Origin: Actinomycetes bacterium
Lineage (GTDB): Bacteria; Actinomycetota; Thermoleophilia; UBA2241
DNA: 36,589 bases
Assembly: GCA_029547745.1 (NCBI GenBank)
Contig: JAKPOQ010000132.1
Coordinates: 1 to 36,589, forward strand
Reading direction: 5' to 3'
Below the pieces are notes generated by a model. The model worked only from the letters and a program-made list of their open reading frames with translations. It was not told where the DNA came from and did no database searches. The translations under genes and the position numbers were made by a program. Shown here in pieces: positions 820 through 9,732 of this stretch. Every line of letters begins with the position of its first letter. Within the stretch, counting starts at the first letter, position 1.

Positions 820-3531
820 TCAGATCAAGGCGTGCAGCCGCTCCTTGAGGGCATCGAACTCGCCGCCCTTGAAGCAATACCCGACCTCCGTGAACTGTGA
901 GCGCAGGCGCACGACCTCGTCGCGGACGTCGCGTCCCTCGAGGATGACCGCTGCCATGAGCTCGGCGACACGGGCAAAGTCGGCCGGTCCCATGCCGAAG
1001 CGGGTCAGCTCGGCGACGCCGAGCCGCAACCCGCCCGCTGCCGTGAAGCCCTCCTCGTCGGGCGTGGCCTGGTAGTTGCAGATGATGTTGTTCGCCTCGA
1101 GTCGCTCGGCGACCTCGGCGCCGCGCCCGTACCCCACGTCGACGATCACCTGGTGCGTCTCGGTGAAGTCGACGGACGAGTCGCCTTGGACGTCCAGGCC
1201 GGCATCGCGTAGGGCGCGGGCGAAGGCCTTGGCGTTGGCGATCACGGCCTGCTGATAGGCGTCCTTGAAGTGGTTCATCTCGTAAGTCGCCATGAGCAGG
1301 CCGAGCAGCGTCCCGAGGTGATGGTTCGACACCGACCCGGGGAAGGCGCGCCGCTCGATCGCCTCCCAGAGCTCCCAGCGCTCCTCGGGCTCGCGCCAGT
1401 CGCCGGCGATGATGCCGCGCTGGGGCCCGAAGAACGTCTTGTGGGTCGATCCGGTGACGATGTCGGCGCCCTCGGCGAAGGGCTGCTGGAAGTAGGGCCC
1501 GACGAGACCGAGGACGTGCGCCATGTCGTACATCAGCACCGCCCGGCTGCCGGTCTCGTCGAGGAAGCGCCGCACCTCGGCCACCGGCTCGGGATGAAGG
1601 ACCATGCTCTTGCCGAGGATGATGAGCTCCGGGTCCTCCTTGGCGATGAGGTCGAGGAGGGCGGGTACGTCGGGCTTGTACGGGTTGTCCTCGCGGACGG
1701 GGATGTCCTCCACGGCGGGCGTCTCGGTGCGCGGGTCCCGGGCGACGAAGTCGCGCAGGGCGCCCATCGGCTGGGCACTCAGGTGCCCGCCCTTGGCGAT
1801 GTGGTTGTTGATGACCTTGCGGATGCGCCGCGGCTCGGCCTTGCGGTCGCCGCGGTTGAGGTAGTCGACCAGGGCGCTGAAGACGGCGGCATTGGCCATC
1901 TGGCCGCTGATCACCCGCGTCTCGACCTCGGCGCAGCCGAGGAACGTGCACAGTTCCTGCTTCAGCAGCCGCTCGACCTCGTGGATGAACGACGTGCCCT
2001 GGTAGTAGAAGACCTCGAGGTCGTAGAAGGCCTCCGTCTTCTTGTGCTCGGCGTAGCGGAAGGCCGGGTCGGTCACGCTGAGGAGGCGCACGAGCGGCGA
2101 GGTCGTCATCTCGGACGGGATGAGGTTTAGCGACTGGTACTGGCGCCACTCGTGGTTGGCGATGGCCCGCTTGGCGAGGTCTGCGGCAAGTTCCTCGCGA
2201 TCGCCCTGCGGGAGCGGGGGCAGCTCGGGTTCGTGGTCCCAGACGATGGCGCGGGCGCAGGGCGGCGCGTCGCTGCGCAGGTGATACTCGACGACGAGTC
2301 CGGGGACGCGCTTGCCGCGCACGTCGACCTCGACACGGTCTTCTTCGACGATGCGGCTGTCGATGTAGGCGAGCGCGATCGAGCGCAGGGCGTGTTCCTC
2401 GGTCTGGGTCGAGCAGAGACCCTCGCCCTCCACGCCCCAGTAGGGGACGGCGGTGCCGCTCGTGACCCAGCCGACATGCTCGCCGTCCTTGAAGACCGGG
2501 GCGCCCTCGCGGGCGATGCCGCGGCCGGTGACGGCGACCGGGCGGGTCATCCGGGGCAGGTCCTGGACCAGCGACCAGTCGCGGACAAGGATGCGCTCGT
2601 AGGCACGGTGCTGACGCTCGAGGGCCGCGCGGCCGACGAAGTCACCCTTGCGCGGCGACAGGCTGACCGCGAACGAAGCCAGCGGGCAGCTCATGATCGG
2701 GATCTCGTGCCCCTCCGGGTCGAGACCCAGCTCGTGGCCGTAGAGCGGCAGGCCTGCCTCGAGACGCAGGGTGTCGCGGGCGCCGAGCCCGCAGGGCTCG
2801 GCGCCCGCCGCCACCAGCGCGTCCCACAGGGACGGCGCGTCCTCGGCGGCGACGAACAACTCGAAGCAGAGCGGCTCGCCGGTGTATCCGGTACGGCTCA
2901 GGCGGACCTCGACGGCGCGGGCCTGCCCGGCGTCGCCGGATCCGCCCGCGCCGGCCGCGCCCGCGCCCGTGCGCAGTCGCACGATGCTCAGCTTGTTGCG
3001 TAGCGGCTCGGGCAGGTGGCCGGAGGCGAGCAGACGCATGAGGATCTCGCGCGACGTCTTGCCCTGCAGAGCGAGCATGGCGATGTCCTCGGAACGGTCC
3101 TCCAATCGGAGGTCGTCGAAGTCGCCGGCGAAGGTCTGGAAGTGCGTCCAGTCCTTGTCGCGGTTGGCGGCATTGACGACGAGCACGTACTCGTCGTCAA
3201 CGAAGCGGTACAGGTACGCGTCGTCGACGGCCCCGCCGGTCGGGGTCGGCACGATCGTGTACTGCGCCTCGAGGGGGTCGAGCGCCTCGCAGTTGTTGCT
3301 GAGCACGTGTTGGAGGAACGGGATCGCGCCGCGACCGCCGACGATGAAGCGTCCCATGTGCGAGACGTCGAACAGGCCGGCGTCGCGTCGCGTGGCGAGA
3401 TGCTCGGCGAGGATGCCGGCTGGATAGTGCAACGGCATCTCCCAGCCCGCGAAGTCGACGAGCTTCGCCCCGGCGGCGACGTGTCGGCTGTAGAGCGGCG
3501 TGCGACGCAGGGCTGTGCCCTGCGTGGCCAC
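820..3531 (-). CDS. gcvT/glyA: Fused aminomethyltransferase (GcvT) and serine hydroxymethyltransferase (SHMT-like) protein
   Basis: A single 903-residue frame joins two folate enzymes. Residues about 1-430 are GcvT-like: FDVSHMG, GGAVDDAYLYR with the conserved Asp pair, RTGYTGE, GLGARDTLRLEAG, GWVTSGT and a C-terminal barrel. Residues about 455-890 are a divergent SHMT: LNLIPSE, SGQMAN, MYDMAHVLGL (Asp669, His672) and GSTHKTFFGPQRG with the PLP lysine at about 698. GcvT transfers the aminomethyl carbon to tetrahydrofolate; SHMT interconverts glycine plus methylene-THF and serine, so the fusion could pass methylene-THF between sites (inference). The GTG at 3531 has GGGAGG 7 nt upstream; a longer TTG start at 3567 would overlap the upstream gene. 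It lies 20 nt after the aminotransferase, downstream of a glycine riboswitch. A Gly/Ala-rich loop (about residues 188-205) is inserted in the GcvT part. GcvP, GcvH and lipoamide dehydrogenase are not in the window. Confidence 0.9.
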   Translation of the reverse strand: MATQGTALRRTPLYSRHVAAGAKLVDFAGWEMPLHYPAGILAEHLATRRDAGLFDVSHMGRFIVGGRGAIPFLQHVLSNNCEALDPLEAQYTIVPTPTGGAVDDAYLYRFVDDEYVLVVNAANRDKDWTHFQTFAGDFDDLRLEDRSEDIAMLALQGKTSREILMRLLASGHLPEPLRNKLSIVRLRTGAGAAGAGGSGDAGQARAVEVRLSRTGYTGEPLCFELFVAAEDAPSLWDALVAAGAEPCGLGARDTLRLEAGLPLYGHELGLDPEGHEIPIMSCPLASFAVSLSPRKGDFVGRAALERQHRAYERILVRDWSLVQDLPRMTRPVAVTGRGIAREGAPVFKDGEHVGWVTSGTAVPYWGVEGEGLCSTQTEEHALRSIALAYIDSRIVEEDRVEVDVRGKRVPGLVVEYHLRSDAPPCARAIVWDHEPELPPLPQGDREELAADLAKRAIANHEWRQYQSLNLIPSEMTTSPLVRLLSVTDPAFRYAEHKKTEAFYDLEVFYYQGTSFIHEVERLLKQELCTFLGCAEVETRVISGQMANAAVFSALVDYLNRGDRKAEPRRIRKVINNHIAKGGHLSAQPMGALRDFVARDPRTETPAVEDIPVREDNPYKPDVPALLDLIAKEDPELIILGKSMVLHPEPVAEVRRFLDETGSRAVLMYDMAHVLGLVGPYFQQPFAEGADIVTGSTHKTFFGPQRGIIAGDWREPEERWELWEAIERRAFPGSVSNHHLGTLLGLLMATYEMNHFKDAYQQAVIANAKAFARALRDAGLDVQGDSSVDFTETHQVIVDVGYGRGAEVAERLEANNIICNYQATPDEEGFTAAGGLRLGVAELTRFGMGPADFARVAELMAAVILEGRDVRDEVVRLRSQFTEVGYCFKGGEFDALKERLHALI

Positions 3532-3551
3532 GCCGCTCCCTCCCGCGCCGC

Positions 3552-4760
3552 TCACTGCTCCGCCCAAGCCTTGAGCTTGCCGAGGCCTTCCTCGATGTCG
3601 GCGACGGGGATCCCCGAATAGGCGAAGCGTCCGTAACGGCGCGTCTCGCCGGGAAGCTCACGCCCGAAGTGCAATCGCGTGCAGAACGACACTCCCGTCT
3701 GTTCGAGGACAGCGCGGCGCAACTCGTCGTATGTGTCGTAGCCCTTGCGTTCCATGAGCTCCGTCATGTCGGGGAAGAGATAGAAGGTCGCTTCGGGAGC
3801 GTAGCACGAGACGCCCGGGATGTCGTTGAGCAGGCGCACGGCCACGTCGCGTCGGTCCTTCAGGATGCCGAGGATCTTCTTCGCCCCGGACTGGTCACCG
3901 GTCAGCGCCTCGACGCCGGCGTACTGGATGAAGTGAGTGGTGCAGGACTCCTGGTTCACATTGAGGGTGGCGACATGAGTGATGATCTCTTGCGGCCCGA
4001 TCGCCGCCCCGAGACGCCAGCCGGTCATGGCGTACTTCTTGCTGAACGTGTACAGGATGACGGTGCGCTCCTGCATGTCGGGCAGGCTGGCGATGGACCT
4101 GCTGCGCCCGGAGTAGCGGATATCCCAGTACGCTTCGTCGGAGAGCACGTAGAGGTCGTGGTTACGGGCCAGCTCGGCGAGAGTCTCGATCTCGGTGTCG
4201 GGGCTCTCGGCTCCCGTCGGGTTGTGTTGGTTGTTGAAGATCAGCAGCTTCGTGCGCGGTGTGATGGCGGCCTCGATGGCGTCGAAGTCGAGAAGGAAGT
4301 CCGTCTCGCCGGGGACGAAGCCGTACGGCTTTGCGACGCCGCCGAGGAACTCGATCTGCGACTCGTAGATCGGGAACCCCGGGTTGGGATAGAGGACCTC
4401 GTCGCCGGGGTCCATCAGCGTGAGGAGGAACTTCCCGATGACCGGCTTGCCGCCCGGTTGGACGGCGACGTTCTCCGGTCCGTAGTTGACGCCGTGCGAG
4501 GCGCTCACGTCTGCGGCCAGCGCCTCGCGCAACGGCATGATGCCCGCGTTCGGGCAGTAGCCGGTCTTGCCGTCGGCGATCGCTTTCATGGCCGCGTCGA
4601 CGATGTTCTGCGGCGTCGGCAGGTCCATGTCGCCGAGGTGGAAGGGGTAGACGCGGTTCCCCTTCTCCTGCCAGGCGGCGGCCTCGGCCGAGACGGCGAA
4701 GGCCGTCTCGGTCCCGAGGCGGGCGATACGTTGAGCGAGGTGGGTCCGTCCGTCGGTCAT
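3552..4760 (-). CDS. Class I/II pyridoxal-phosphate aminotransferase
   Basis: This is a 402-residue fold-type I aminotransferase. It shows the GYCPNAG substrate-loop segment, YPNPGFPIYES, NNQHNPTG with the conserved Asn-Pro, SDEAYWDI (the PLP-binding Asp and Tyr), and the PLP lysine in TFSKKYAMTGWRLG (about residue 241). The Arg in RFAYSG near the C-terminus probably binds the substrate carboxylate. It transfers an amino group between an amino acid and a 2-oxo acid. Its place directly behind a glycine riboswitch and before gcvT/glyA suggests glycine/glyoxylate, alanine or serine as substrates, which is inference. The ATG at 4760 has GGGAGG 8 nt upstream; the frame could be extended to a TTG at 4784, but that lies beside the riboswitch hairpin. 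The usual length for the family is about 390-400 residues. Confidence 0.92.
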   Translation of the reverse strand: MTDGRTHLAQRIARLGTETAFAVSAEAAAWQEKGNRVYPFHLGDMDLPTPQNIVDAAMKAIADGKTGYCPNAGIMPLREALAADVSASHGVNYGPENVAVQPGGKPVIGKFLLTLMDPGDEVLYPNPGFPIYESQIEFLGGVAKPYGFVPGETDFLLDFDAIEAAITPRTKLLIFNNQHNPTGAESPDTEIETLAELARNHDLYVLSDEAYWDIRYSGRSRSIASLPDMQERTVILYTFSKKYAMTGWRLGAAIGPQEIITHVATLNVNQESCTTHFIQYAGVEALTGDQSGAKKILGILKDRRDVAVRLLNDIPGVSCYAPEATFYLFPDMTELMERKGYDTYDELRRAVLEQTGVSFCTRLHFGRELPGETRRYGRFAYSGIPVADIEEGLGKLKAWAEQ

Positions 4761-4785
4761 GACTCGTGCCTCCCTTAAGCGCAAA

Positions 4786-4816
4786 GGACAGGGCGATGTC
4801 TCCCATCACCCTGTCC
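4786..4816 (-). terminator. Terminator-like hairpin of the glycine riboswitch expression platform
   Basis: Read on the minus strand, GGACAGGGTGAT pairs with ATCGCCCTGTCC (12 bp including one G-U) around a 7-nt loop and is followed by TTT. It sits between the glycine aptamer and the aminotransferase ribosome site (4771-4776). This is the expected place and shape for a transcription-control element, although the U-tract is short. Confidence 0.6.
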
Positions 4817-4821
4817 ACCTG

Positions 4822-4849
4822 GCGCCGGCCCCGCTTCGCCGGCCGGCGC
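4822..4849 (-). other. Strong stem-loop between aptamer and terminator
   Basis: GCGCCGGCC (4849-4841) pairs perfectly with GGCCGGCGC (4830-4822) around a 10-nt loop. It follows the aptamer by about 25 nt. It does not carry the conserved glycine-binding core, so it is not a second working aptamer. It may be the structural remnant ('ghost' stem) that often accompanies single-aptamer glycine riboswitches, or part of the expression platform. Confidence 0.45.
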
Positions 4850-4874
4850 TGCATGGCTCCAGGGACCCGTCGAG

Positions 4875-4970
4875 CCGCGTTCCGGTTGCCTGAGAGTTTC
4901 GGCGGCGCATCCGGCGTCGCCTTGCCCCTTCGGCGCCCGCCAAGCGTCTCGCCCGCGGGCTCTCGCGCGG
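4875..4970 (-). promoter_or_regulatory. Glycine riboswitch (single aptamer)
   Basis: On the minus strand the conserved glycine-aptamer core is recognisable: GCGCCGAAGGGGCAAG (about 4936-4921) and GAAACTCTCAGGCAACCGG (about 4900-4882). GAGAG (4964-4960) pairs with CTCTC, and CCGCG (4970-4966) pairs with CGCGG (4879-4875) as the closing helix. It lies about 25-120 nt downstream of a promoter and about 115 nt upstream of the aminotransferase start. Glycine riboswitches usually turn on glycine-degrading genes when glycine is abundant; that fits the aminotransferase and gcvT/glyA fusion here. Only one aptamer is seen. Confidence 0.9.
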
Positions 4971-5000
4971 CCGTCAGCCGGGCGTCCTCGGTTCGGGGCG

Positions 5001-5029
5001 ACAGTACCACCGCGGCCGGGGGGTCGCAA
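5001..5029 (-). promoter_or_regulatory. Promoter of the glycine operon
   Basis: On the minus strand TTGCGA (5029-5024) and TACTGT (5006-5001) are separated by 17 nt. The predicted start, near 4994, is just ahead of the glycine aptamer. Confidence 0.6.
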
Positions 5030-9591: not shown

Positions 9592-9732
9592 CCCGGCTTG
9601 CGGGGCCGGGGTCGTCCGTGCCTGCGAGGGGACGTCGACTCACTCTCGCTGCGGAGTAGCTGCATGGGGTCGGCAGGGGCGGAGAGGGTGTAAGAGGCTG
9701 GCGCGAAGGACCTGCGCCGAAGGGTGCTGACC

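Follow-up and report, generated by a model that had tools for sequence, protein, structure and literature searches.

A glycine riboswitch heads an operon in which a class I/II aminotransferase gene is followed by a gene for a GcvT-SHMT fusion protein, an unusual union of two glycine/serine enzymes that are as a rule separate. The best explanation, to which we give a probability of roughly 0.7, is that the leader is a type-1 singlet glycine ON switch and that the operon serves to dispose of and assimilate glycine, which would be converted through serine and hydroxypyruvate to glycerate, serine being the substrate of the transaminase. This reading builds on features observed directly in the window and its relatives, namely the riboswitch, the gene order, the conservation of both and the intact catalytic residues of the fusion.

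The analyzed stretch of DNA (herein the window; 36,589 nucleotides) corresponds to contig C189 in a draft genome (2.27 Mb, 95.8% complete) whose family and class relatives include named Thermoleophilia (Actinomycetota) MAGs. The fusion was found in 13 genomes of the family, and the region upstream of the operon is assembled in 11 of these. Leaders were compared in a set of 10, comprising the window together with L136, L137, L139, L141, L142, L148, L149, L150, and L099. More widely, 80 fusion loci were retrieved, sampled from Desulfobacterota, other "Deltaproteobacteria" MAGs, Planctomycetota, Actinomycetota, Bacillota, Poribacteria, Calditrichota, and others; gene content was checked in 40 fusion genomes, and catalytic residues were compared in 32 fusions.

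A first-pass annotation had placed a promoter, a single glycine aptamer, a GC stem, and a terminator-like hairpin ahead of the aminotransferase and fusion genes, and all of these elements are present on the minus strand, which carries every feature of the window described here. The search that it had suggested with the Rfam glycine model (RF00504) gave a full-length match (1 through 94 of 94) at 4977-4868, between the promoter and the aminotransferase start at 4760, with a score of 47.3 bits against a gathering score of 32 (E = 8.1e-7 for the whole window). Across the 10 leaders, six aptamer pairs show two-sided changes, and 96% of the cells in the aptamer helices are paired, compared with 27 to 45% in slid controls. 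From this match and the covariation in P1/P2, we take the leader to be a real glycine riboswitch, an ordinary RF00504 member in the usual gcv context and a predicted glycine binder. A second glycine riboswitch, the only other one in the genome, lies on contig C66 before gcvH-gcvPA.

The promoter (5029-5001) consists of the −35 hexamer TTGCGA (5029-5024), a 17-nt spacer, and an extended −10 element, TGGTACTGT (5009-5001), reading TG-G-TACTGT; the pattern TTGC-N-TGnTACnnT is found upstream of most of the related leaders as well as the genome's own gcvH leader. Between promoter and aptamer, the 5′ strand of P0 (CCCG, 4982-4979) pairs with CGGG of the linker (4869-4866), and all four pairs are kept in 10/10 leaders, one of them with a one-sided change. 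P0 is flanked by GA/GA, which by its sequence motif we assign to the known leader-linker kink-turn. Generic scans missed both ends of the regulatory region, the sigma-70 scan not picking up the promoter (5029-5001) and the terminator scan not reporting the leader hairpin, because the hexamers are nonconsensus and the U tail is weak; comparison with relatives rescued both.

Downstream of the aptamer lies a ghost aptamer (4864-4809), whose P1 pairs CCCUG (4864-4860) with CAGGG (4813-4809). The stretch CCCUGGA...GGACAGGG mimics both ends of an aptamer, and the middle is replaced by an internal GC hairpin (4849-4822), the GC stem of the first-pass annotation. Every one of the 10 leaders has the same succession of a single aptamer, CCCUG[GA]A, a variable hairpin, and GGACAGGG; the five pairs of ghost P1 are invariant throughout this set, and most folds of transcripts that stop short of the terminator contain ghost P1. 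The terminator-like hairpin that follows (GGACAGGGUGAUG/CAUCGCCCUGUCC with a weak U tail; 4816-4777) contains the 3′ strand of ghost P1 in its 5′ arm. Its hairpin proper (4816-4786) has 13 bp and a folding energy of −26.2 kcal/mol (z = −5.6), with 0/200 shuffles as stable, and 97% of the cells in its pairs are kept among the 10 leaders. The CAGGG of GGACAGGG can pair either with CCCUG, forming ghost P1, or with the 3′ arm of the terminator; the two pairings are mutually exclusive, and the overlap is laid out in this way in 10/10 leaders.

This ghost-stem layout assigns the leader, at the level of sequence, to the type-1 singlets, which have one aptamer and a 3′ ghost aptamer. A ghost aptamer in the type-1 position has been described for singlet glycine riboswitches, and 93% of type-1 singlets regulate glycine-cleavage genes (PMC6944388). 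With the type-1 singlet gcv riboswitches of that study (PMC6944388), the leader shares the single RF00504 aptamer, the 3′ ghost aptamer, and the overlap with the terminator; it differs from them in that the first downstream gene encodes an aminotransferase or a 2-hydroxyacid reductase and in that the T-protein is fused to SHMT.

Since the ghost P1 and terminator pairings exclude each other, a glycine ON switch is predicted, and we infer from their overlap that the simplest mechanism is anti-termination. With glycine bound, the aptamer would dock on the ghost aptamer, and the docked ghost P1 (CCCUG/CAGGG) would sequester the CAGGG needed by the terminator, allowing read-through; without glycine, the terminator hairpin would form. 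The tail after the hairpin of the window, UUUGCGCUU, is weak as a U tract, so that control there could be translational or mixed; clear U tracts stand at the equivalent place in L139 (TTTTTT), L148, and the genome's own gcvH leader (TTTTTG). The opposite arrangement, an OFF switch on a biosynthetic operon running from glycerate through serine to glycine, can appeal to the SHMT, transaminase, and reductase steps being reversible in principle. We regard it as very improbable, since a ghost P1 that competes with a terminator is the geometry of an ON switch, glycerate kinase operates in the catabolic direction, and the genes under type-1 singlets are overwhelmingly those of glycine cleavage (PMC6944388).

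Of the 11 family genomes with an assembled upstream region, 9 have the riboswitch at the head of the operon. L140 is without a riboswitch, and L138 without an aptamer. Neither of these two loci has an RF00504 match even at E values up to 5, and the idea that their riboswitches had merely been missed was rejected on that result. In L138 (G060), the minus strand (about 4400-4650) still has the promoter and a ghost/terminator-like stretch but no recognizable aptamer, which may be a natural aptamer loss or else an assembly error. L099 is a separate contig of the L007 genome; it has a riboswitch ahead of a reductase-like start, and the operon of that genome may begin there. Two further glycine riboswitches are present in UBA6103 (G016; C26:291774-291879 and C3:41808-41908), making three in all, and a SAM riboswitch (RF00162; 2666-2800, minus strand) lies on the same contig as the L139 operon.

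As first proposed, the leader precedes an aminotransferase gene (4760-3552) and then the fusion gene (3531-820). The fusion is predicted to have 903 aa from a GTG start at 3531, with GcvT domains at about 3495-2287 and an SHMT domain at about 2166-958 (Pfam matches PF01571, 3.9e-71; PF08669; PF00464, 2.7e-34). The GcvT half passes the NCBIfam cut-offs (PRK00389, 319.9 versus 300; TIGR00528, 255.4 versus 235.85). The SHMT half passes Pfam PF00464 (118.9 versus 27 bits) and falls below the bacterial GlyA cut-off of NCBIfam PRK00011 (248.8 versus 335 bits), being divergent from bacterial GlyA; its best solved relative is the SHMT of Methanocaldococcus jannaschii (189 bits, versus about 78 for Escherichia coli GlyA). 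An AlphaFold2 model of the fusion (pLDDT 85, pTM 0.82) retrieved the T-protein 1woo and the M. jannaschii SHMT 4uqv with Foldseek. The M. jannaschii enzyme (4bhd/4uqv) is the closest solved relative of the fused domain by both sequence and fold, and is a stand-alone archaeal enzyme, whereas the domain here is joined to GcvT. Among the 32 fusions, D115 and D116 of GGAVDDAYLY in the GcvT half are invariant, as are the PLP-binding K710 (in GSTHKTFFG), Y505, E507, H595, D681, H684, and R848 in the SHMT half.

The score below the NCBIfam SHMT cut-off, a threonine (trans)aldolase as the second-best PDB group, and the presence of a canonical GlyA in most fusion genomes would be in keeping with a fused domain that acts as an aldolase or transaldolase on another β-hydroxy amino acid and forms no serine. 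We consider this unlikely, as its partner in the fusion produces methylene-folate, its best match is a true SHMT with the catalytic residues kept, and the genomes of the window, L024, and L070, all of them draft assemblies, have no other SHMT match.

In the draft genome of the window, the fusion is also the only GCV_T match. It is the only GcvT in most of the 40 fusion genomes checked, and a separate canonical GlyA is usually present too; the fusion therefore appears to be the T-protein of these genomes, with its SHMT half usually an additional SHMT. A canonical GlyA was not found in the draft genomes G000, G016 (UBA6103), and G035, where the fused domain may be the only SHMT, an assembly gap being the alternative; looking for the neighbor of GlyA in relatives, as a check for such a gap in the window's genome, gave only a 41% match that is probably a paralogue. 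GcvT-SHMT fusions with an archaeal-type SHMT half occur in many phyla, and in the curated NCBIfam models only their GcvT half has a name. Tentatively, the fusion might be a widespread bifunctional "serine synthase," in which methylene-tetrahydrofolate would pass from the T-protein site to the archaeal-type SHMT site within one polypeptide, converting two glycines to serine, in several lineages under a glycine riboswitch and together with a serine-to-glycerate branch. A literature search whose coverage leaves out most subscription journals returned no described GcvT-SHMT fusion or operon of this kind, and nothing relevant on a glycine riboswitch before serine or glycerate genes.

The aminotransferase (402 aa; PF00155, 1.5e-52) is preceded by a Shine-Dalgarno sequence, AAGGGAGG (4776-4769), and its gene ends 20 nt before the fusion. 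Its family does not fix its substrate; the nearest solved relatives are aspartate aminotransferases, with 1j32 the nearest PDB structure. A serine transaminase is predicted from the gene context. The first-pass annotation had suggested that the transaminase takes part in glycine or serine breakdown, which is probably correct: its gene immediately precedes that of the fusion in 13/13 family genomes in which the fusion was found, and relatives add a reductase-like gene, a glycerate 2-kinase, or a full glycine cleavage operon. In L141, L142 (UBA6103), and L149, the riboswitch is followed by the reductase-like gene, the aminotransferase, and the fusion, the first encoding a 2-hydroxyacid dehydrogenase most similar to glyoxylate/hydroxypyruvate reductases; in L142, L149, and L151, the fusion is followed by a glycerate 2-kinase-family gene. 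The planctomycete L040 has a tandem glycine riboswitch before a reductase-like gene, an aminotransferase (65% identical), and the fusion, and continues with gcvH, gcvPA, gcvPB, and lpd. Elsewhere, the aminotransferase adjoins the fusion in the Desulfobacterales MAG L061, a serine dehydratase gene lies directly upstream of it in Desulforhopalus singaporensis (L041), and glycine riboswitches stand directly upstream of it in Oscillospiraceae. Nearly half of the 80 fusion loci have gcvH and gcvPA/gcvPB (gcvP) as neighbors.

From this context we infer both the substrate of the transaminase and the direction of the reactions. The fusion would supply the T-protein of the glycine cleavage system, the GcvH, GcvPA, and GcvPB proteins of which are encoded elsewhere, with gcvH-gcvPA under the sister riboswitch; its SHMT would transfer the methylene group so released to another glycine, giving serine, and the aminotransferase would convert serine to hydroxypyruvate. 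In the operon of relatives, the hydroxypyruvate/glyoxylate-reductase-like enzyme would then reduce hydroxypyruvate to glycerate, and glycerate 2-kinase would form 2-phosphoglycerate. The window's own operon is without the reductase and kinase genes, and the rest of its genome yielded no more than a glycerate kinase fragment at the edge of a contig and a single strong match to 2-hydroxyacid dehydrogenases, probably SerA; the later steps, if present, would thus be encoded outside the window's operon.

C2 cycles employ the same enzymes, glyoxylate is also a substrate of PRK13243/GhrB-type reductases, and class I/II aminotransferases accept several substrate pairs, all of which would suit an operon for glyoxylate assimilation. 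The aminotransferase would then work mainly with alanine or aspartate and glyoxylate to make glycine, and the cleavage system and the fusion would carry this on to serine in a photorespiration-like C2 route. We give this route a small chance of being correct: control by glycine fits the removal of glycine better than its formation, and the glycerate kinase and serine dehydratase neighbors indicate that the route branches at serine.

The first-pass annotation had extended the riboswitch-controlled unit to a third gene, which encodes a D-aminoacylase-type amidohydrolase, starts 102 nt after the fusion, and is cut by the contig end (717-1; PF07969, 1.1e-12). The pairing of aminotransferase and fusion holds, and the amidohydrolase appears to be a weak, doubtful member of the operon. 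An intact homologue (L136:9689-11257) scores 280 bits against the D-aminoacylase 1m7j. An amidohydrolase gene after the fusion occurs only in the window and in L136, of the same genus, and is absent in the other family members, where a methyltransferase, transketolase, or glycerate kinase gene takes the slot. The methyltransferase-like gene (SAM-dependent) is seen in L137, L138, and L149, and the transketolase-like gene in L139, L141, and L148. Between the fusion and the amidohydrolase of the window lies a perfect 13-bp GC hairpin without a U tract (779-751), and L136 has at the same position (about 9636-9675) a long, very stable GC hairpin of unrelated sequence; with such a hairpin in both genomes, co-transcription is doubtful. 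The leader had also been offered as a handle on the substrate of the amidohydrolase, and this did not hold up: with the gene confined to the genus and placed behind a stable hairpin, the riboswitch says little on the matter.

The conversion of serine through hydroxypyruvate and glycerate to phosphoglycerate is the branch used in the serine cycle of methylotrophs, in plant photorespiration, and in serine degradation by Thermotoga, and the kinase of the relatives belongs to the Thermotoga glycerate kinase family (2b8n). The predicted pathway would follow the same steps; it differs in having a transaminase of class I/II rather than class V and in its coupling to a GcvT-SHMT fusion and a glycine riboswitch. 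In Pseudomonas aeruginosa, the gcs2 operon (gcvH2-gcvP2-glyA2-sdaA-gcvT2) takes glycine to pyruvate under the control of GcsR (PMC4894688), likewise a glycine-induced route from glycine through serine into central metabolism by way of the cleavage system and SHMT. That system has a protein activator and separate GlyA and GcvT, whereas the operon described here has an RNA switch and a fused T-protein/SHMT (PMC4894688). The exits from serine also differ, with a serine dehydratase leading to pyruvate in gcs2 and a transaminase, reductase, and kinase here; the Desulforhopalus locus has the dehydratase beside the fusion.

The switch itself is of a known class, and it is its position that links a group of unassigned genes of uncultured bacteria, those encoding the class I/II transaminase, the fusion, the 2-hydroxyacid reductase, and the glycerate kinase. 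The fusion replaces the stand-alone GcvT in several phyla, and the position of the switch gives both fusion and transaminase a specific, testable function. Together, these genes suggest a natural glycine-to-phosphoglycerate module, which may interest work on synthetic C1 and glycine assimilation.
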